A stretch of DNA of 64,000 nt from Myxococcus stipitatus (GTDB lineage Bacteria; Myxococcota; Myxococcia; Myxococcales; Myxococcaceae): NCBI RefSeq assembly GCF_038561935.1, contig NZ_CP102770.1, positions 6,448,001 through 6,512,000 of the forward strand. The letters run 5' to 3'. Made by a program: the position numbers and the translations under genes. The notes under the pieces are model-generated. The model saw only the letters and a program-made list of their open reading frames with translations. It was not told the origin of the DNA and did no database searches. Of this stretch, positions 434 through 16,268 are shown piece after piece (position 1 is the first letter of the stretch; each line of letters starts with the position of its first letter).

Positions 434-625
434 CGGAGGGCCCCGGGGCGCACTCGCGGAACGAAGGACGGGACCGCCCCGTCCCGGGCAGGCATCACCC
501 CCGGCGCTCCTCCGTTAACCAAGGCGACGCGAATGCGCACGGGAAACGCGGCGAGGCACACGACCCCACGGCTGCCCTCTCCCACCGCACGCCTCTCCAT
601 GGAAGACTCTCCGCAGGGGTCCCTC

Positions 626-1399
626 ATGCACGAAGTCAGTCACGCTCGAATGGTGGAGCAGCTCCAGTCGCTGGGGGTCCGCGAGGGCGGCGTGCTCCTG
701 GTCCACACGTCCTTCAAGGCCGTGCGCCCCGTCGAGGGCGGCCCATTGGGGCTCATCGGCGCCTTGCGCGCGGCCCTGGGTCCACGCGGAACCCTGGTCA
801 TGCCCACGATGACCCGCGGAGACACTGTCTTCGACCCGACCTCGACCCCCACCGAGGACATGGGCATCACCGCGGAGCTCTTCTGGCGCCAGCCCGGCGT
901 GACACGAAGCACCCACCCGGGAGGCTCCTTCGCCGCCGAGGGCCCTCACGCCGCGGACATCTGCCGTCCCCAGCCGCTCTCGCCGCCCCACGGCCCCGAC
1001 AGCCCCGTGGGCCGGGTCCACGACCTGGGCGGGCAGATTCTGCTTCTCGGCGTGAGCCACGGAGAGAACACGACCCTCCACCTGGCGGAGGCGCTCGCAC
1101 GCGTGCCCTACTCCGTCTCCCATCCCTGCGTCGTCGAGGTCGACGGTGTCGCGAGCACGGTGATGCTCGCCGAGACGGACCACTGCTGCTCGCGCTTCCC
1201 GCTCGCCGACGGCTGGCTGCGCGCCCGAGACCTCCAACGAGAAGGCACCGTCGGCCACGCCCACGCACGGCTCTGTGACGCGAGGGCGGTGGTGGACGTC
1301 GCCGTGAAGCAGCTCACCGCCGAGCCCCTCACCTTCCTGTGCCCCCAGGACGCCGGCTGCGAGCAATGCGACCAGGCGCGCCTGAGCATCGGCGCGTGA
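626..1399 (+). CDS. AAC(3)-family N-acetyltransferase
   Basis: Predicted acetyl-CoA-dependent N-acetyltransferase of the aminoglycoside 3-N-acetyltransferase (AAC(3)/YokD) fold, 257 residues, which is the usual length. Family marks are LLVHTSFKAV near the N-terminus, LVMPTMT, the THPGGSFAAEG block that contributes to the active site, and LLLGVSHGENTTLHLAE. I chose ATG 626 because AGGGG lies at a good distance upstream; ATG 599 is in frame but has no ribosome site, and the open frame upstream of that is non-coding in style. The family includes antibiotic-resistance enzymes and enzymes acting on secondary metabolites. Nothing nearby tells which, so resistance should not be assumed. C-terminal cysteines (CPQDAGCEQC) are an unusual ending that could bind metal. 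Confidence 0.8.
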   Translation: MHEVSHARMVEQLQSLGVREGGVLLVHTSFKAVRPVEGGPLGLIGALRAALGPRGTLVMPTMTRGDTVFDPTSTPTEDMGITAELFWRQPGVTRSTHPGGSFAAEGPHAADICRPQPLSPPHGPDSPVGRVHDLGGQILLLGVSHGENTTLHLAEALARVPYSVSHPCVVEVDGVASTVMLAETDHCCSRFPLADGWLRARDLQREGTVGHAHARLCDARAVVDVAVKQLTAEPLTFLCPQDAGCEQCDQARLSIGA

Positions 1400-2256: not shown

Positions 2257-2802
2257 CTAGAGCGAAGGGAGGACGGGCGCGTCCTTGAGACGCGGGGCGC
2301 GCAGGTCCTTGGGCGACATGAGCGGCTCGGACACCGGCCAGGGAATGCCGAGGTCCGGGTCGTTCCACGCGATGCAGCGCTCCGTCTCCGGCGCGTACAG
2401 CGTGGTGCACTTGTAATGGAAGTCCGCCGACTCGCTCGTCACGCAGAAGCCGTGGGCGAAGCCCGGCGGAATCCACAGCTGGCGGCGGTTCTCCGCGGAC
2501 AGCTCCACCGCCGCCCACTTCCCGAAGGTCGGCGAGCCGCGCCGGACATCCACCGCCACGTCGTACACGCGGCCCGAGAGCACCTGCACCAGCTTCCCCT
2601 GCCCTTGCGGCTCCTGGAAGTGCAGGCCGCGCAGGGTGCCTCGCGACGAGCGCGAGTAGTTGTCCTGGATGAAAGGCCCGGGGATGCCCGCGTCCGCGTA
2701 CCGCTTCGCGTGGAACAGCTCCATGAAGAAGCCCCGGTCATCACCGAAGACCTTGGGCTCCACCAGCAGCAGGTCCGGAATCTCCAACGGCGTCACCTTC
2801 AT
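2257..2802 (-). CDS. rmlC: dTDP-4-dehydrorhamnose 3,5-epimerase (RmlC)
   Basis: Third enzyme of dTDP-L-rhamnose synthesis: epimerises C3 and C5 of dTDP-4-keto-6-deoxy-glucose in the cytoplasm. 181 residues, the family length. Visible marks are [35 protein letters not shown] (containing the conserved substrate-binding Arg and the active-site His), and [11 protein letters not shown]. The start is the ATG that overlaps the rmlA stop by four bases (ATGA), implying translational coupling; the open frame extends upstream but only as an out-of-frame shadow of rmlA. It is the last gene of the rmlB-D-A-C run and serves the O-antigen genes that follow. Confidence 0.95.
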
Positions 2803-3680
2803 GACACCGCGCCCCGGTTCTCCGCGACGGCCAGCAGGTACTGCCCGTACTCGTTCTTCCGCATCGGCTCCGCCAGAGCCGTCAGCTGCTTCGCGTCGAT
2901 GTAGCCCATCCGGTACGCAATCTCCTCGGGACACGCCACCTTGAGCCCCTGGCGGCGTTCGATGATTTCGATGAAGTTCGAGGCCTCCATCAGCGAGCTG
3001 TGGGTCCCCGTGTCCAGCCACGCATAGCCCCTGCCCATCAGCTCCACGTCGAGCTGGCCCCGGCGCAGGTACTCCGCGTTGACGTCGGTGATCTCCAGCT
3101 CGCCGCGAGGGCTCGGCTTGAGCGCGGCGGCGATGTCGAGCACTTGGTTGTCGTAGAAGTACAGCCCCGTGACGGCGTAGTTCGACTTGGGCTTGAGCGG
3201 CTTCTCTTCCAGGCTCACCGCCCGGTTGTTCGCGTCCAGCTCCACCACGCCGTAGCGCTCCGGGTCCTTCACGTAGTAGCCGAACACGGTGGCGCCCGAC
3301 GTGCGCTTCGCCGCGTTGCGCACGCGCTGGCTCAGTCCATGGCCGTAGAAGATGTTGTCCCCCAGGATGAGTGACACGGGGGACGTGCCCACGAAGTCGC
3401 GGCCGATGACGAACGCCTGCGCCAGGCCCTCCGGCCGGGGCTGCTCCGCGTACTCGAAGCGCATGCCCCACTGCTCGCCACGGCCCAGCAGCTCGCGGAA
3501 GCGAGGCAGGTCCTGCGGCGTGGAGATGATGAGCACCTCGCGAATGCCCGCCAGCATCAGCGTGCTGAGCGGGTAGTAGATCATCGGCTTGTCGTGCACG
3601 GGCAGCAGCTGCTTGCTGACCACGCGAGTCAGGGGATACAGCCGGGTCCCCGAGCCCCCTGCGAGGATGATGCCCTTCAT
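2799..3680 (-). CDS. rmlA: Glucose-1-phosphate thymidylyltransferase (RmlA)
   Basis: First step of dTDP-L-rhamnose synthesis: glucose-1-phosphate plus dTTP gives dTDP-glucose. The nucleotide-binding signature [15 protein letters not shown] is at the N-terminus, followed by [18 protein letters not shown] and the metal-site region [12 protein letters not shown]; 293 residues is standard. I start at ATG 3680, which has GAGG five bases upstream and gives the canonical MKGIILAGG start; a GTG at 3686 adds two residues and cannot be excluded. It follows rmlD by 15 bases and overlaps rmlC, so it is in one operon. Confidence 0.95.
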
Positions 3681-3695
3681 ATCCACCTCTCGAAG

Positions 3696-4598
3696 TCAGG
3701 TTCCTCGCGCGGCCTTCCAGCTCGCGTGGAAACGGGAGAGCGACGTGGCCAGGTCCAGCGGCTTCTCGGCCAGCTCCGCGCGGGCCTTGTCCGTCTTGAG
3801 CCCGCTCTTCAGCGGCCGAGGACTGGGCAGCTTCAGGTCCGCCATGCGCGTGGGGATGACGAGCCCCGCGTCGAACCCGAACACCTCACACAGCGCCCGT
3901 CCGAAGGCCACGCGGTCCATCACCTCGCCGCCGCAGGTGTTCCACACCCCGCCGAGCTTGCGCTCGCCCAGCTCCACCAACATCCCCGCGACGTTGTCCG
4001 CGAGCGAGGGCGAGACAATCTGGTCGTCGAACAGCCGCACCGACTGCCCCTTCTCCAGGTTCGTCACCAGCCACGCGCCGAAGTTGAGCCGCCCCTCCAC
4101 CGGGGGCCACCCGTACACCACCGCCGTCCGGGCGATGGCGGAGCCCGGCGCGAGCACCCGCACCGCCTGCTCCGCCATGTGCTTCGTCAGCGCATAGGCG
4201 CCGCGCGGGTTGGGCACGGACGCTTCGTCGTACGGGCCCGCGTCACCATCGAAGACGTAGTCGGTGGACACATGGACCAGGTGGGCCCCCGCTGTCCGCG
4301 CGCCTCGCGCCACCGCCGCCGTCGCCTGCACGTTGGCCGCATACGCCGCCTCCACGTTCTTCTCGCAGGCGTCCACCTCCGTCATGGAGGCGCAGTGGAT
4401 GACGACGTCCGGGGCCGCCGTGGACAGCGCCTCGGCGACCTCCGCGTCGCGAGTGAGGTCCACGGAGACGTAGCCGTACGAGCCCCCCGTGCGCCGAGGC
4501 CCTCGCCCCAGGCCGACGACGGTGTGGCCCCGCGTCTCCAGCAGCGCGCAGGCGCGGCTGCCCACCAGGCCATTCGAGCCCGTGACGAGGAAGCGCAT
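3696..4598 (-). CDS. rmlD: dTDP-4-dehydrorhamnose reductase (RmlD)
   Basis: Last enzyme of dTDP-L-rhamnose synthesis, an extended short-chain dehydrogenase reducing the 4-keto sugar with NAD(P)H. The Rossmann motif VTGSNGLVGSRACALL opens the protein and the catalytic YALTKHMAEQ (YxxxK) is in the middle, with STDYVFDGDAGPYDE upstream of it. At 300 residues it is normal length. It starts one base after the rmlB stop and ends 15 bases before rmlA, so the four rml genes are a single transcription unit in the order B-D-A-C. Confidence 0.92.
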   Translation of the reverse strand: MRFLVTGSNGLVGSRACALLETRGHTVVGLGRGPRRTGGSYGYVSVDLTRDAEVAEALSTAAPDVVIHCASMTEVDACEKNVEAAYAANVQATAAVARGARTAGAHLVHVSTDYVFDGDAGPYDEASVPNPRGAYALTKHMAEQAVRVLAPGSAIARTAVVYGWPPVEGRLNFGAWLVTNLEKGQSVRLFDDQIVSPSLADNVAGMLVELGERKLGGVWNTCGGEVMDRVAFGRALCEVFGFDAGLVIPTRMADLKLPSPRPLKSGLKTDKARAELAEKPLDLATSLSRFHASWKAARGT

Positions 4599-4599
4599 G

Positions 4600-5625
4600 T
4601 CAGGCCTTCCCCTGGAGGCGGTGGCGGTACTGCGTCTCGAAGTATTGCCGGTACGCGCCGCTCATCACGCGCTCCCACCACGCGGGGTGGTCCAAGTACC
4701 AGCGCACCGTCTCCGCCAGCCCCTGCTCGAAGGTGTGCGCGGGCGTCCACCCCAGCTCCGCGCGAATCTTCGACGGGTCGATGGCGTAGCGCCGGTCATG
4801 CCCCGGCCGGTCCTTCACGTACTGGATGAGCGACTCGGGCTTGCCCACGAGGCCGAGAATCGCCTTCACGATGTCGATGTTGCGGCGCTCCGCCCCACCG
4901 CCGATGTTGTACACCTCGCCCGCGCGGCCCTTCTCCAGCGCGAGCAGCAGCGCCTGGCAGTGGTCCTCCACGTGCAGCCAGTCGCGCACGTTGGCCCCGT
5001 CGCCGTACACCGGCAGCGGCCTGTCGTGCAGCGCGTTGACCACCATGAGGGGAATCAACTTCTCCGGGAACTGGTAGCGGCCGTAGTTGTTCGAGCAGCG
5101 CGTCACCACCACGTCCATGCCGAAGGTGTGGTGGTAGGCGAGCGCGACCAGGTCGGAGCTCGTCTTGCTGGCCGAGTACGGGCTGGAGGGCTTGAGCGGA
5201 GAGGACTCGGTGAAGGCGCCCGTGGGGCCCAGCGAGCCGTACACCTCATCGGTGGACACCATCACGAAGCGCTTCACGCCCCGCGCGCGGCTGGCCTCCA
5301 GGAGGCGCTGGGTGCCCAGCACGTTGGTGGTGACGAAGACCTCGGGCCCGAGGATGGAGCGGTCCACGTGGCTCTCGGCCGCCAGGTGCAGCACGGTGTC
5401 GATGGCGTGCACCGACATCAGGTGCTCGACGAGCTCGCGGTTGCCGATGTCGCCCCGGACGAACACGTGGCGCGGGTCGCCCTCCAGGTCCGACAGGTTC
5501 TCGAGGTTGCCCGCATACGTGAGCTGGTCGAGGTTGACGACCGTCCAGTCGGGTCGCTCGCGTCGCAGGTACCTCACGAGGTTGGAGCCAATGAAGCCAC
5601 ACCCTCCTGTCACCAATACGTTCAT
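4600..5625 (-). CDS. rmlB: dTDP-glucose 4,6-dehydratase (RmlB)
   Basis: Second step of dTDP-L-rhamnose synthesis: NAD-dependent removal of water from dTDP-glucose. The NAD motif VTGGCGFIGSNLVRYL is at the N-terminus, LHLAAESHVDRSI and STDEVYGSLG follow, the catalytic YSASKTSSDL (YxxxK) is present, and RCSNNYGRYQFPEKLIPL is diagnostic of the dTDP-sugar subgroup. I set the start at ATG 5625 (MNVLVTGG), 341 residues, because it is the family start; the frame is open a further 21 codons. First gene of the rml operon, with about 120 bases of divergent promoter space to the glycosyltransferase at 5746. Confidence 0.94.
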   Translation of the reverse strand: MNVLVTGGCGFIGSNLVRYLRRERPDWTVVNLDQLTYAGNLENLSDLEGDPRHVFVRGDIGNRELVEHLMSVHAIDTVLHLAAESHVDRSILGPEVFVTTNVLGTQRLLEASRARGVKRFVMVSTDEVYGSLGPTGAFTESSPLKPSSPYSASKTSSDLVALAYHHTFGMDVVVTRCSNNYGRYQFPEKLIPLMVVNALHDRPLPVYGDGANVRDWLHVEDHCQALLLALEKGRAGEVYNIGGGAERRNIDIVKAILGLVGKPESLIQYVKDRPGHDRRYAIDPSKIRAELGWTPAHTFEQGLAETVRWYLDHPAWWERVMSGAYRQYFETQYRHRLQGKA

Positions 5626-5745
5626 GTGTCGCGGGCCTCGAGAGCTCGGAGAGTGTGCCTGCGTATCGGAGGGGGTGGCGACGGTCAAGGCGCTCGGGAT
5701 GCCCGCGCTTGTGTACGCCCCCCCGCGGCGCTAAGGGAGCCGGGC

Positions 5746-7359
5746 GTGAAAGAGAGCCACCGCAGCCCCTCGACGTCGACTCCCCGGGAAGTCCACCAGC
5801 TCGTGCCACGGCTCGCGTGGGGAGACGGGGTGGGCAACCAGGCGCGCTACCTCCAGGGCCTCCTGCGCGGCTGGGGTTACACCTCCGACATCTTCGCCGA
5901 GGACTGGGATGACGCGTGCAAGGACCAGGTCCGGCACGTGCGCGAGTACGAGAAGCAAGCTCGCCCGGACACCGTGCTCCTCATCCAGCACAGCTTCCAG
6001 TCGCGGCTCGTGCCACTCATCGCTCGAGTGCCTGGCCGCAAGGCCATCATCTACCAGAACGTGACGCCCGCCCGGCTGTTCGAGGGGTTCGAGCGCAAGG
6101 TGGCCGCCGCGTGCGACGCGGCCCGGGATGAGCTGCTGGAGCTGCGGCCACACGTCGAGCGGGCCTTCACCTATTCGAGGTTCAGCGCCGAGGAGCTGGT
6201 GGCCGCGGGCTATCGCTCCGTGGTGACGATGCCCTTCGCCATCGACTGGACCGCGTTCGACACGCCGCCGGACTCCGCGCTCCAGGCGGAGCTGAGCGAC
6301 GGCTACTCCAACATCCTCTTCGTGGGCCGAGCGGTTCCCAGCAAGAAGGTGGATGACGTGCTGCGCGTCTTCGCCGCGTACCAGCGTCTCTACCAGCCGC
6401 GCAGCCGGCTCATCATCGCGGGCTATCTCCACCGGGACAGCGCCTACGGCGCGTACCTGCACGGGCTCAAGGACGTCCTGGGCATCGAGCGCGTCGTGTT
6501 CATGGGCCGGGTGAGTCCCGCGCAGCTCTCCGCGTGCTTCGCGACGGCGTCGGCCTATCTCTCCATGAGCCGGCACGAGGGCTTCGGCGTGCCGCTGTTG
6601 GAGGGCATGTACCGCAACGTGCCCGTCGTGGCCTACGGCGCGGCGGCGGTCCCGGAGACGATGGGTGGCGCGGGCCTCACCACGCTGTCGGATGATCCCA
6701 CCGAGGTCGCGCAGCTGCTCGCCGTGCTGGACCGCAACCCCGCGCTGCGGGCGCAGGTGCTCGAGTCGCAGCGGGCCCGGCTGGGGGCGCTGTCGCAGGA
6801 GTTCGTCGCGGAGCAGGTGCGCGCGGCGCTGGATGACCTGCTGTCTTCCCGCCCCAGCGAGGTCGCCTCTTCGACGCCATCCGCCACCGTGGAGCTGGTG
6901 TGCCCCGGCTACACGATGCATCCCGAGGCGGAGGCGTCCCGGCTGACGCGGCGGCTGGCGGAGCGGATACCGGGCGCGCGTGTGCTGGCGCTGAGGCCGC
7001 GCGGCGAAGCGGCGTCGATGGAGCTGCGCGAGCAGCAGGTGGAGGGAGTGCCCGTGTGGCACTTCACGCCGGACCAGCCTTCGAGCCGGCTGAGCGACGT
7101 CCTTCCGGGCTCGTCGTCGCTGGAGACGGCGGTGCGAGTGTCGTCGGCGCCGGTGGTGCTGGTGGGGGTGGACACGCTCAGCGCGCAGGCGCTGCTGCCC
7201 TATCTGGGTGCGAGAGCGTGGGGTGTGCAGGTGGCGGGACAGCCCACCACGGCCCTGGAGTCCGCGCGGAGTCACCTGCGGGACCGCCTGGTGATGATGG
7301 GGTCCTCGGGCTCCGAGGCGGCCATCACGACGTTGTTGGAGGGGTTGCGTGCGCGCTGA
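5746..7359 (+). CDS. Glycosyltransferase, GT4 family (LPS/O-antigen)
   Basis: A 537-residue cytoplasmic glycosyltransferase of the GT-B fold. The N-terminal acceptor half contains WGDGVGNQARYLQGLLRGWG; the C-terminal nucleotide-sugar half shows NILFVGRAVPSKKVDDVL and then HEGFGVPLLEGM, the E-x7-E motif of GT4 retaining enzymes, followed by VVAYGAAAVPET. A further ~170 residues after the catalytic domain (from about 370) are not typical of the family and I do not recognise them. Start GTG 5746 is chosen for AAGGGAG six bases upstream; the frame is open far upstream but that part is a shadow of rmlB on the other strand. Divergent from rmlB, overlapping the next gene by 11 bases. Sugar specificity unknown; rhamnose is plausible from context. 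Confidence 0.85.
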   Translation: MKESHRSPSTSTPREVHQLVPRLAWGDGVGNQARYLQGLLRGWGYTSDIFAEDWDDACKDQVRHVREYEKQARPDTVLLIQHSFQSRLVPLIARVPGRKAIIYQNVTPARLFEGFERKVAAACDAARDELLELRPHVERAFTYSRFSAEELVAAGYRSVVTMPFAIDWTAFDTPPDSALQAELSDGYSNILFVGRAVPSKKVDDVLRVFAAYQRLYQPRSRLIIAGYLHRDSAYGAYLHGLKDVLGIERVVFMGRVSPAQLSACFATASAYLSMSRHEGFGVPLLEGMYRNVPVVAYGAAAVPETMGGAGLTTLSDDPTEVAQLLAVLDRNPALRAQVLESQRARLGALSQEFVAEQVRAALDDLLSSRPSEVASSTPSATVELVCPGYTMHPEAEASRLTRRLAERIPGARVLALRPRGEAASMELREQQVEGVPVWHFTPDQPSSRLSDVLPGSSSLETAVRVSSAPVVLVGVDTLSAQALLPYLGARAWGVQVAGQPTTALESARSHLRDRLVMMGSSGSEAAITTLLEGLRAR

Positions 7360-7897
7360 GGACCTGCTGACCGATGCCCCCTCGGCCGAAGCCGTGGCGA
7401 GGGAAACCCAGAAGCTGCCGGAGGCCTCCACCGAGGCGAAGGAGGCCCTGCGCCGCGCGCTGGAGTCCTCGACGCGGCAAGCGACTCCCGCGCCCTGGCC
7501 CACGCTGCTCCTGGAGGCGCGAGGGAAGATGGACAGCCGCTATGCCGGGCCGGTGACGTCACACCGAGGCGGCGTCTCGGGGCCCGCGCTGGTGCTCGCG
7601 AAGCGTGCGTTCCGGCTCCTCTTCCAGCCGTTCATCAACGAGGCGCTGCGCAAGCAGGTCGAGTTCAACGAGTCCATCCTCGATGCCCTCGCCACGATTC
7701 ACGACGTGCAGCGCGAGCACGCGCGGACGCAGGCCACCTGGCGACAGGAGGTCGAGCGGAGGCTCGCGCGCATCGAGGAAGCAGCCCGGGCGGGCACGGC
7801 CACGGCCCAGGAGCCCGCTGGAGCGAATGACACTCCGCCCGAGCCCTCACGAGGGCCCGGTGGAGGAAACACCCGACGCCGCTCGGGCCGACGCTAG
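7349..7897 (+). CDS. Small protein carrying the 'SHR…KR…FN' module shared with WbgA N-terminus
   Basis: A 182-residue protein with no catalytic domain that I recognise. It starts at GTG inside the end of the glycosyltransferase (11-base overlap). Residues 71–117 (SHRGG, then AKRAF, then LRKQVEFNESILDAL) closely match degenerate blocks in the N-terminal region of the large glycosyltransferase at 12432–16268. From memory such SHR/KR/FN segments are common, usually unannotated, in LPS glycosyltransferases and methyltransferases, where an amphipathic helix could touch the membrane. Residues 115–150 look like a coiled coil (VQREHARTQATWRQEVERRL). The tail is low-complexity and ends with GGNTRRRSGRR. 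It may be an accessory or scaffold for the O-antigen enzymes. Its stop codon interlocks with that of the convergent gene at the sequence CTAG. Confidence 0.6.
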   Translation: MRAEDLLTDAPSAEAVARETQKLPEASTEAKEALRRALESSTRQATPAPWPTLLLEARGKMDSRYAGPVTSHRGGVSGPALVLAKRAFRLLFQPFINEALRKQVEFNESILDALATIHDVQREHARTQATWRQEVERRLARIEEAARAGTATAQEPAGANDTPPEPSRGPGGGNTRRRSGRR

Positions 7898-12431: not shown

Positions 12432-15400
12432 TCAGTCGACGGCGGAGCGAGCCGGCCTGGACTCCAGGGCCAGCAGGTTCTCCATCATCCGGTCCACCTC
12501 CTGCTCCCACGTGGTGCGGCGGACACGCTCGGCGGCTCGTGCTCCCAGTCGCACTCGCAGCTCCGGGTCCAGCACGGCCGCCCTCAGTCGCGCCAGCACC
12601 GAGCCCGGCGTCGGCGCCGCCAGCAAGCAGTTGCCACCGTCCTCCAGCAGCCAGTGGTTGGCGGGGTTGTCATTCGTCACCACCGTCATGCCGCACGCCA
12701 TCATCTCCAGCGGCAGGTAGGACGGGTGCCGGGTGAACATGAAGCACAACCCCACGTCACACTCGCGGTAGAGCGCCGCGGTGCGCTCGGCGGGGAGCAC
12801 GCCCAGGTTCGTCACCAGGCCCCGGACGCCGTAGGACTCCGGGTGCCACTCCGCACCCGCGGTGACGATCTCCACCGCGGGGCCCAGCTCCCGCTTGAGC
12901 CGCGTGAGCGCCGCCAGGCCCAGCTCGAAGCCGTTCCGCTCGTTGCCCGGGCGGCCGTAGAAGAAGACGCGCACGGGCCCGCGGCGCGGCGGACGGCGGT
13001 CATGGAAGGTCACCCCATCCACGGCGGGCTCGAAGGCGAATCCGCCCATGCCGTGAAGCGCCTTCACCGTGTCGCGCAGGCCCGGGGTGTTGAAGATGCC
13101 CTGGAAGCCCAGCTGGTACGTCTGCTCCGCCAGCGCGGACTGGGTGCCCGCGGCGAAGAACATGGGCTCATAGTCCTGGACGAAGTAGGTGCGCACGCCG
13201 GCACGGGGATGGCGCAGCACCTGGTAGACGGAGGTCCAGTAGGTGGCGATGGCCAGGTCACACGCGGGCAGCGACTCCAGGTCCGCCGCGCCGGCGAGGA
13301 CGCGGAAGGCCCCCGCCGCCTGGGGAAACACGGTGGCGGCCCGGGCCTCGAAGTCACCCGGGCTGGCCCCGGGCTTGTCGTACACGATGAAGTCGCTCTT
13401 CACGCCGTGGCGGCGGTGCATCAGGTCCGCGAAGCGGAACAGCGTGTGGATGCCCGCGTAGACATGCCCGAAGGCCGGGATGAACCAGGAGGCGGTGCGC
13501 ACCTTGCCGCGCGAGCGCAGGGCCGCCAGGGCCGCGGGAGCCTGTGCCCGAGACGCCTCCGCCTGCTCCGGCGTGAAGTCGAGCTCCCCCAGGTGCTCCA
13601 CCAGGTGACGCTGGGCGACCGCCCGCGCCTCCATCGCCGCGTCCTGCGCGCTGGGCACATCGTGCGTCAGCGTGCGCAGGGCCAGCGTCTCCCCCGTCTC
13701 TTCATGGTGGCGCAGGGAGCAGTCCGTGCCCAGCAGCGTGAGGTTGGGGTTGTAGAAGGGGTCGCCCCGCTCGCCGAGCCACGGGCGATATGACACGTAG
13801 GAACGCCAGTAATCGGATTCCGGAATGGCGTCCGCGCGGCGGCTGGCCGACTCGTGGTGGATGAGCCGCGCGTGCGGCGTGTACACCACGCGCAGGCCGC
13901 GCTGGTTCAAGCGCAGGCCGATGTCCACGTCGCTGCCGCACACCTGGAAGCGCTCGTCGAAGCCCTCCAGGGACTCGAACACGTCGCGGCGGAAGATGAC
14001 GCAGGCGCTGGTGACGGACAGCCAGTCTCGCGTCCAGTCGGTGTGCCCGAAGGGCGTGGAGATGGGGCCGTCCGGCAGCCGCCAGAAGGGATGGCCCGCC
14101 ATGCCGGTGATGCCCACCACCGCGCCCGCGTGCTGCACCGTCCCCTCGGGGAAGAGCAGCTTGCAGCCCACCGCGCCCACTTCGGGGCGCTGCGCCTGGG
14201 CCACCAGCTCCTCCAACCAACCGGAGTCCATCACCTCCATGTCGTTGTTGAGGAAGAGCAGCAGGTCCCCGGTGGCGCGCTTCGCCGCCCAGTTGTTGAT
14301 GGCCGGGTAGTTGAACGGGAAGTCCCACGTCAGCTTCACCAGCCGGGGGTCCGTGAGGCGCTCCAGCAGCGCGAAGGTCTCCGGCTGGGTGCTGTTGTTG
14401 GAGACCAGCAGCACCTCGAAGTTCGGATACGCGGTGCGCGCCAGCAGCCCGGGCAGCAGCAGCTCCAGCAGGTCCGGCCGGTCCTTGAACGGGACGATGA
14501 TGGACACCTTCGGCGTGCCCTTCACCGGGTAGCGGACGCGGTACTGGGTGGGCGCGGGGCTCGTCACCTCGGCCGACTCGCCCTTGCGCGCCAGGTGCTC
14601 GCGCAGGGCTCTTGCGCCCGCGTCCGTGGCCTTCGCCAGCCCCGCCTCCTGGCTGGAGAAGGACGCCGGGTTGGCGCGCCAGTGGTAGAGCAGCTTCGGC
14701 ACATGGCCGATGCCTCGCGCGGCCTCGCTCAGCCGCAGCATGAGGTCGAAGTCCTGCGAGCCTTCGAAGCCCTCGCGCACGCCGCCCACCGACTCGATCA
14801 GCTCCCGCCGCGCCACCAGGAAGTGGCAGACGTAGTTCACCGAGCGCAGCAGGTCCGGAGACCAGTCCGGCTTGAAGAAGGGCGCGGTCCGCCGCCCTTC
14901 CGAGTCCAGCCGGTCCTCGTCGCTGTAGATGACGTCCAGGGAGGGGTCCGCCGAGGCAGCCAGGACCATCTCCGCCAGCGCGTGAGGCGCCAGCGTGTCG
15001 TCGTGGTCCAGGAAGCCCACCCACGCCCCTGTCGCCACCACGAGCCCCGCGTTCGTCGCCTGGGCGATGCCTCCGTTGTGCTCCCGCGTCACCACGCGAA
15101 TGCGCGCGTCCTCGGATGCGGCTTCCCGCAGCATCCCCGCGACGTGAGGCGCCGTGCTGGCGTCATCCACCAGCACCCATTCCCAGTCGGGATACACCTG
15201 CGAGCGCACCGACGCCGCGCACTCGCGGAAGAAGGACTCGGGCGTGTTGTACACGGGCGTGACGAGCGTCACCTTGGGGCGAACCGCCAACGAGGCCACC
15301 GCCTCGCGCGCCCGGTCGAGGTCTCCCCGCTCCCGGCGCTCACACCAGCCTTCGTAATCCCCCAGCTCGGGGGGACGCGGCGGAGGCGTGCGAGTGCCCA

Positions 15401-16268
15401 GCACGCCCGCGAGCGCCAGCACCGCCTGCTCGTTGAAGCGCGTCTGCCGCCGCAGCAGCTCCGTCCAGAAGGGCCCCCCCGCCCGCAGGGCACGCGGCAG
15501 CGCCGTGGCCCGCAGCGGATCATTGCGCTCGACGAGCGAGGCAATCCACGTGGCGCCAGTGGCCTCGTCCGGAACCTGGAGCCCCGCCGCGCCGGCGATG
15601 GCCTCCACCATGGCCTCGTTCCACTCCGCCTGGCCGCGCAGGAGCCCTTCGAGCAACGGCCCCGCCGCGGAGAGGTAGGAGCGCTTGGCCGCCTCCACCA
15701 CGGAGCCCAAGGGCCCTCCCCGGTGCGAGCGCGCCACCTTCCAGCGCGTCGGGTCCACCCGAGGCTCCAGCTGCGCGCGCACCCACGCCGTCAGGTCCTC
15801 GCGAAGCCGCAAGCTCCGGTGCACCGAGAGGTACTCGAGCACCCGCACCACGGCCTTGTTGAAGTCCGCCTGCGGCCGCAGCGACTCGACATGGAAGGGC
15901 TGGAGGCCCTCGATGAAGGCGCGCTTGGTGGCGGTCACCACGCGGCCCAGCCGGGCGCGGTGGGAGTCCGGCACGGAGAACTCGTGAGGCACCGCCAGCC
16001 GAGCGGCCTCCTGCAGCGGAGAGAGCGCCAGCGCTCCGTCCGGCCGCGCCCGATGGAGCGCTTGCGTGAGGAGCTTCAAGGCGCCCTCGAGCGCCGTCAC
16101 GTCCTCACAGGCCTCGGGCAGGCACGGGCGCCGCGCATCCAGCAGCGAGCGCACCGCGGCCACCATTCGAGCCAGCTCCCCCGCACCCGGGGCAGCATCA
16201 GGCGCCCCCGCCTCTCCAGCGAGCTTCTCCAGGACCGTCTTCACCGACGTACCGCCTCTCTCGTTCAC
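12432..16268 (-). CDS. wbgA: Multidomain O-antigen glycosyltransferase (WbgA/RfbC type)
   Basis: A 1,278-residue cytoplasmic enzyme, matching in size and position the M. xanthus O-antigen protein WbgA (older name RfbC, about 1,276 residues as I recall). Residues 1–300 hold three degenerate SHR/KR/FN blocks. Residues ~331–560 are a GT2 domain (VTLVTPVYNTPESFF, VDDAST, DHDDTLAPHAL). Residues ~586–870 are a second GT2 domain (VSIIVPFKDRPDLL, FLNNDMEV). Residues ~920–1278 are a WsaF-like rhamnosyltransferase GT-B domain (ASWFIPAFGHVYAG, YFVQDYEPMFF, SYLPLEMMACG). It should build the rhamnose-containing O-antigen supplied by RmlABCD. Start GTG 16268 lacks a clear ribosome site; GTG 16244 (VKTVLEKL), after GAGAGG, is an alternative. 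Lies 52 bases after wzt, same strand. Confidence 0.92.
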   Translation of the reverse strand: MNERGGTSVKTVLEKLAGEAGAPDAAPGAGELARMVAAVRSLLDARRPCLPEACEDVTALEGALKLLTQALHRARPDGALALSPLQEAARLAVPHEFSVPDSHRARLGRVVTATKRAFIEGLQPFHVESLRPQADFNKAVVRVLEYLSVHRSLRLREDLTAWVRAQLEPRVDPTRWKVARSHRGGPLGSVVEAAKRSYLSAAGPLLEGLLRGQAEWNEAMVEAIAGAAGLQVPDEATGATWIASLVERNDPLRATALPRALRAGGPFWTELLRRQTRFNEQAVLALAGVLGTRTPPPRPPELGDYEGWCERRERGDLDRAREAVASLAVRPKVTLVTPVYNTPESFFRECAASVRSQVYPDWEWVLVDDASTAPHVAGMLREAASEDARIRVVTREHNGGIAQATNAGLVVATGAWVGFLDHDDTLAPHALAEMVLAASADPSLDVIYSDEDRLDSEGRRTAPFFKPDWSPDLLRSVNYVCHFLVARRELIESVGGVREGFEGSQDFDLMLRLSEAARGIGHVPKLLYHWRANPASFSSQEAGLAKATDAGARALREHLARKGESAEVTSPAPTQYRVRYPVKGTPKVSIIVPFKDRPDLLELLLPGLLARTAYPNFEVLLVSNNSTQPETFALLERLTDPRLVKLTWDFPFNYPAINNWAAKRATGDLLLFLNNDMEVMDSGWLEELVAQAQRPEVGAVGCKLLFPEGTVQHAGAVVGITGMAGHPFWRLPDGPISTPFGHTDWTRDWLSVTSACVIFRRDVFESLEGFDERFQVCGSDVDIGLRLNQRGLRVVYTPHARLIHHESASRRADAIPESDYWRSYVSYRPWLGERGDPFYNPNLTLLGTDCSLRHHEETGETLALRTLTHDVPSAQDAAMEARAVAQRHLVEHLGELDFTPEQAEASRAQAPAALAALRSRGKVRTASWFIPAFGHVYAGIHTLFRFADLMHRRHGVKSDFIVYDKPGASPGDFEARAATVFPQAAGAFRVLAGAADLESLPACDLAIATYWTSVYQVLRHPRAGVRTYFVQDYEPMFFAAGTQSALAEQTYQLGFQGIFNTPGLRDTVKALHGMGGFAFEPAVDGVTFHDRRPPRRGPVRVFFYGRPGNERNGFELGLAALTRLKRELGPAVEIVTAGAEWHPESYGVRGLVTNLGVLPAERTAALYRECDVGLCFMFTRHPSYLPLEMMACGMTVVTNDNPANHWLLEDGGNCLLAAPTPGSVLARLRAAVLDPELRVRLGARAAERVRRTTWEQEVDRMMENLLALESRPARSAVD

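Follow-up and report, generated by a model that had tools for sequence, protein, structure and literature searches.

Coiled-coil scaffolds in O-antigen synthesis have been published for a few enterobacterial systems, in which they sit on the chain terminator, at least in the systems covered by PMC11231755. In its probable way of working, the small protein considered here comes closest to WbdD, the protein of E. coli O9a and of Klebsiella O3 and O5, and there to the coiled-coil scaffold part; in the sections of PMC11231755 and PMC3482155 that deal with it, the WbdD region adjoining the membrane recruits the WbdA polymerase. Like WbdD, the small protein belongs to a cluster of the ABC-transporter type and has a long helix, although a predicted one. 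Unlike WbdD, it has no kinase, methyltransferase or terminating domain (a Pfam scan of its 182 residues gives nothing above the cut-off, kinase and methyltransferase domains included), and it is not a WbdD. Another point of comparison is Alg13/Alg14, a two-gene glycosyltransferase made up of a catalytic and a non-catalytic subunit. Here too a catalytic glycosyltransferase has a separately encoded small partner, as far as gene overlap can tell, but that partner is predicted to be a helical rod and not an Alg14-like fold. The WsaF-type rhamnosyltransferases (WsaF_N and WsaF_C domains) are related to the large enzyme of the locus, WbgA, whose C-terminal catalytic part matches WsaF_C (Pfam, 2.8e-30); the module described below precedes that match. 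In Myxococcus xanthus, O-antigen is made by an ABC-transporter-dependent pathway requiring Wzm/Wzt, and its importance in motility and development is stated in the title of reference 37 of the same paper (PMC7484181).

The window analysed is a 64,000 nt stretch of the Myxococcus stipitatus genome, and its relevant features are collected in Table 1. WbgA has as neighbors an ABC-2 permease and a Wzt_C-containing ABC transporter ATPase, an arrangement that fits the wzm-wzt-wbgA gene order of M. xanthus. The rml-like set fits a rhamnose-containing O-antigen, as well as the WsaF-like domain in WbgA. The large methyltransferase protein is, from its domain arrangement, a candidate chain terminator with spacer, of the published WbdD kind. 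Near the beginning of the window, part of an open frame (~515–1399, forward strand) resembles by eye an AAC(3)-type aminoglycoside N-acetyltransferase.

Table 1. Positions of the features discussed, numbered from the first base of the window
Feature	Position	Strand	Description
Stand-alone module protein	7349..7897	+	ORF of 182 aa beginning with GTG; no domain recognised
Module within stand-alone protein (residues 71–117)	7559..7699	+	First part of predicted helix 77–153
GT4 glycosyltransferase gene	5746..7359	+	537 aa if GTG at 5746 is the start; Pfam Glycos_transf_1, 8.9e-19
Four genes, dTDP-rhamnose set by eye (rmlC, rmlA, rmlD, rmlB)	2257–5688	-	Divergent from the GT4/stand-alone pair
Methyltransferase protein, 705 aa	10194–12311	-	Pfam methyltransferase; by eye a coiled coil, then a glycosyltransferase-like part
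WbgA, 1278 aa	12432..16268	-	Module region; behind it, two GT2 domains and one GT4 domain (WsaF-like)
WbgA module copy 1 (residues 98–151 by profile)	15816..15977	-	
WbgA module copy 2 (residues 177–231 by profile)	15576..15740	-	
WbgA half module, copy 3 (residues 261–289 by profile)	15402..15488	-	C-terminal half of the model only

By profile comparison, the 182-aa protein and the N-terminus of WbgA share a helical module, ~45 residues long, that is homologous in the two. A preliminary description of this DNA had pointed to a resemblance between residues 71–117 of the small protein and residues 102–290 of WbgA (bases 15399–15965); its coordinates for these segments and for the 182-aa ORF are all correct, and the sharing of a module between WbgA and a protein in which no catalytic domain is recognised is real, with reciprocal profile scores far above those of shuffled sequences. 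With a profile built from 50 stand-alone segments and lacking any row from WbgA, copy 1 reaches 33.7 bits (E 8.6e-9) and copy 2 reaches 24.5 bits (E 6.4e-6), as against 10.5 bits for the best of 20,000 shuffles of WbgA residues 1–340; copy 3, at 9.9 bits, is not significant by this profile. In the reverse direction, the 182-aa protein reaches 34.1, 33.6 and 29.9 bits with single-copy profiles of WbgA-type copies 1, 2 and 3, respectively, the best of 20,000 shuffles scoring 10.7 bits. A profile confined to 11 segments of the second stand-alone type (see below) finds copy 1 (E 1.3e-4), while missing copy 2 (6.3). Profile–profile comparison, suggested earlier as a check, gives hhalign probabilities of 96–99%. 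A caveat to all of these profile results is that the segments were collected with a profile (A3) mixing stand-alone and WbgA kinds.

When the 49-residue stand-alone segment alone was searched against the whole genome (E limit 10), there were six matches, including itself and a second stand-alone protein (53% identity, E 4.5e-6 to this segment) encoded ~1 Mb away. Three were the WbgA copies (copy 2, E 2.2e-4; copy 1, E 0.006; copy 3, E 1.1), and one more, at E 2.1, is probably due to chance; its ORF resembles by eye a CCA-adding enzyme. Credible matches are confined to three genes in this 10-Mb genome. The claim that WbgA has three copies needs some revision: copies 1 and 2 are full modules, but the third is only half of one, since it covers model positions 22–51 of 56, or roughly the second half. 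This half module is found by profiles made from copy 1 only (0.026) or copy 2 only (1.5e-5), and the arrangement of two and a half tandem copies is also seen in WbgA relatives.

The core of the module consists of [S/T]-H-R and a G, followed by a helix with a K and Q-x-x-[F/W/L/A/Y]-N. All 94 full-module segments, which comprise 63 distinct cores, place the K exactly 18 residues ahead of the Q; this spacing is absent from the half module. A proline nine residues before the Q is present in 39/50 stand-alone, 21/21 copy-1, 21/23 copy-2 and 22/22 copy-3 segments. Among 27 aligned proteins there are 21 invariant columns, 17 of which fall within residues 71–111; the C-terminus of the stand-alone protein varies in both sequence and length. 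The most conserved face of the helix points in a similar direction in the two stand-alone types and in WbgA copies 1 and 2 (31, 357, 341, and 349 degrees, respectively). The signal is modest: out of 5000 permutations per group, 87, 71, 217, and 78 reach it (343 of the pooled 20,000), with 5 to 11 non-redundant sequences per group, and copy 3 gives none (4062 of 5000 permutations). In one module-bearing GT2 enzyme (genome G017, locus L205, 6237–9020, reverse strand), the linker joining copies 1 and 2 contains a tandem repeat of ~18 residues resembling GRDASAGATHEREGAQGF, and copy 2 of the same enzyme has lost the SHR part.

At curated cut-offs no Pfam, NCBIfam or PHROGs family covers the module, and the N-terminal ~320 residues of WbgA have no Pfam or NCBIfam match; the module can be regarded as a family without a name in these three collections. 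No PDB chain matched it in sequence at useful E-values, and no description of it was found in the literature searched, in which subscription papers were sparsely represented. For the 182-aa protein, AlphaFold2 (a monomer model) predicts a single 77-residue helix, from residue 77 to 153, and no globular domain. Blocks within residues 81–150 have mean pLDDT of 91–98, and the whole model 77.0, with a pTM of 0.36. The WbgA N-terminus is modeled as helical at the copies, at low confidence (mean pLDDT 60.9; three sequences), and a fold search with this weak model returned nothing usable (best E 0.81).

The gene most closely tied to the stand-alone gene is the one directly upstream. In the window, the GT4 gene, whose own GTG start is preceded by AAGGGAG, overlaps the stand-alone gene by 11 bases, the stop codon of the former falling within the first codons of the latter. 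For loci found via the module, and with the start codon closest to the GT4 stop chosen in each case, all 32 distinct genomes examined, drawn from the 63 that have an orthologue, show a GT4-like gene whose end overlaps the beginning of the orthologue: by 11 bases in 29 genomes (one with a TTG start), by 14 in two, and by 4 in one. The second stand-alone type has a 4-base overlap with another GT4-like gene in 12 of 12 loci, counted in the same way. Between the two GT4 proteins of this genome, identity is no higher than 25%, over a stretch of 113 residues. Among the orthologues, the module begins 60–61 residues from the start in nearly all rows, and at 69 in one (G045). A pair of catalytic and non-catalytic genes is conserved, then, in these 32 genomes and 12 second-type loci. 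There is also a locus (L085, the same as L097) in which the stand-alone protein has no GT4 gene ending upstream; its gene precedes an ORF resembling, by eye, the methyltransferase protein of the window. The preliminary description had tied the small protein to WbgA. By gene arrangement the tie is to the GT4 gene instead; a functional link is more likely with this neighbor, the link to WbgA being one of homology. Overlap of genes indicates co-expression, not a complex.

Orthologues of the 182-aa protein (best E ≤ 1.7e-35) are present in 63 of 96 genomes of the host family. WsaF_C, the C-terminal domain of WbgA, accompanies the orthologue in 38 of the 63 genomes and occurs in 5 of the 33 that have no orthologue; the two are therefore associated. 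The module profile was run against 16 of the 53 genomes that lack WsaF_C, and 15 of these 16 have an orthologue. In 11 of the 15, another long open frame (755–950 aa) carries the module; the three of these that were scanned are all GT2 enzymes, so module-bearing enzymes without WsaF_C do exist. The other four (G004, G005, G007, and G032) have an orthologue and no module-bearing long frame at E ≤ 0.001, and the sixteenth genome, G003, has a single match, of the second stand-alone type to judge from the orthologue search. Module-bearing long frames without an orthologue occur in G049, G080, G087 (where the frame runs off the contig), and G091, and a genome outside the family, G122, has such a frame and no stand-alone match; these five are drafts, 86–98% complete, so absence may be a gap in any of them. 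It seems that the stand-alone protein and the module-bearing large glycosyltransferases often co-occur, and that neither needs the other. Since each is found without the other, and since the second stand-alone protein is encoded ~1 Mb from the first, a reading in which the module is particular to WbgA, or to the O-antigen cluster, is ruled out.

On sequence grounds, then, the module is a building block of myxobacterial polysaccharide glycosyltransferases, occurring both fused to large enzymes and as small proteins that show no recognised catalytic domain and whose genes overlap GT4 genes. Because its gene overlaps that of a sugar transferase, the small protein is most likely a helper subunit holding such enzymes in place. 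As a working model, the small protein would be made by translational coupling with the GT4 gene and would form a non-catalytic, rod-shaped subunit of the enzyme encoded there. Its module may dock onto a helical partner, either another copy of the module or a shared inner-membrane component, and in this way the GT4 enzyme could be held together with multi-domain ones, WbgA among them, where lipid-linked O-antigen is built. We put the chances of this model as a whole at about even. Docking and membrane contact, both proposed for the module in the preliminary description, are plausible roles for it. A more elaborate version, in which GT4-coupled helical plugs would pair homotypically with the tandem copies in WbgA, as a kind of assembly code, and the resulting bundle would gather separately encoded glycosyltransferases into a single complex at the export site, is unlikely. 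A GT4-coupled subunit with no recognised catalytic domain of its own, having its module in common with multi-domain enzymes, would represent another route by which O-antigen enzymes are assembled.

The module might instead be only a membrane anchor, an in-plane amphipathic helix tying its enzyme (or the GT4, by way of the small protein) to the inner membrane with no helix–helix docking. The helix does combine K/R with hydrophobic residues, and WbdD has a membrane-associated amphipathic helix, as described for the systems in PMC11231755. Many loci also end in a strongly basic tail, and for this reason the anchor role is a live rival, possible if on the doubtful side: of 26 orthologue loci, 11 have a net charge of 5 or more within the last 15 residues, and of 10 second-type loci, 9 do. 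The tail is missing, however, from the other 15 orthologue loci. In WbgA the strongest hydrophobic-moment windows do coincide with copies 3 and 1, but in the 182-aa protein they lie at residues 21–49, outside the module. Moreover, the invariant residues include polar K, Q, and N, with the K–Q distance conserved as well, and a plain membrane helix would need neither. Self-association, with the module forming a homotypic helical bundle through which the small proteins would oligomerise and the tandem WbgA copies would bundle within one chain, has in its favor the conserved helix face, the one intact long helix predicted, and the tandem arrangement of two full modules and a half one among relatives of WbgA; there is also a precedent in WbdD, a trimer with a C-terminal helical bundle in the structural account of PMC3482155. 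Against it, the third copy amounts to half a module and shows no sign of the conserved face, and we consider self-association an unlikely explanation.

That the 77-residue helix is a spacer, setting chain length as a molecular ruler in the way of the WbdD coiled coil, is improbable. Its predicted length and lack of interruption would suit this, and such rulers are among the published features of ABC-transporter-dependent O-antigens (in the systems treated in PMC11231755); the published ones carry a terminator, however, and the 182-aa protein has no terminating enzyme domain, the methyltransferase protein of the window being the better candidate. A small gene with a module of the WbgA kind, no recognised domain and a variable C-terminus could also be what is left of a larger module-bearing enzyme, without function, but the occurrence of orthologues across most of the family genomes (63/96), the near-constant overlap, and the 21 columns invariant in 27 aligned proteins make such a remnant very improbable. 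Hardly credible at all is a similarity due to chance, or to the general likeness of amphipathic helices and coiled coils. Short helical segments of simple composition can look alike, and copy 3 by itself is weak in the own-genome search, but a chance origin is contradicted by the 20,000-shuffle controls, the reciprocal profiles, and the genome-wide specificity. Nor is the similarity a general amphipathic-helix artefact, which the preliminary description had named as what would undo it: the invariant residues are specific, partly polar and at fixed spacing, and only three genes are credibly matched. Of the readings weighed here, the docking subunit coupled to the GT4 enzyme is the one we prefer.

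Within the phylum, a match at E ≤ 0.001 is found in 96 of the 195 genomes searched; the host family accounts for 91 of them. Among 80 genomes of the phylum outside this family, 27 have a match at E ≤ 1, and the only clear ones are G105, G122, G152, and G153, with E-values of 5.1e-20 or lower and the next genome at 0.035. Three of these four had contributed rows to the query. G105, from another family of the phylum, has a single module ahead of a GT2 domain. A half-match in G153 (L092) was rejected as chance, the protein being MraZ-like by eye. In G128 another profile gives a match at 8.5e-4, in a frame of 34 aa that contains a stop; the search of the 80 genomes gives none there. A search of genome contigs found 26 loci, all under myxobacterial names (Myxococcus, Corallococcus, and allied genera) except for one labelled Comamonas sp. 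KCTC 72670 (BNCN01000007.1, L117), a name that looks wrong.

Plasmids searched with the true module gave three matches, the best at E 2. An approximate consensus gave one lead, at E 1e-4: a methyltransferase (L144, 8767–9972) on plasmid CP026659.1 of Deltaproteobacteria bacterium Smac51. It differs from the modules above in that the myxobacterial profiles score it at only 6.6–7.9 bits (E 1.0–1.8). Its N-terminus has a helix-like K/R segment that, like the module, ends in Q-x-x-F-N, and may possibly be a distant relative of it; and its gene, like the stand-alone gene, overlaps a GT4 gene, in this case by 4 bases.
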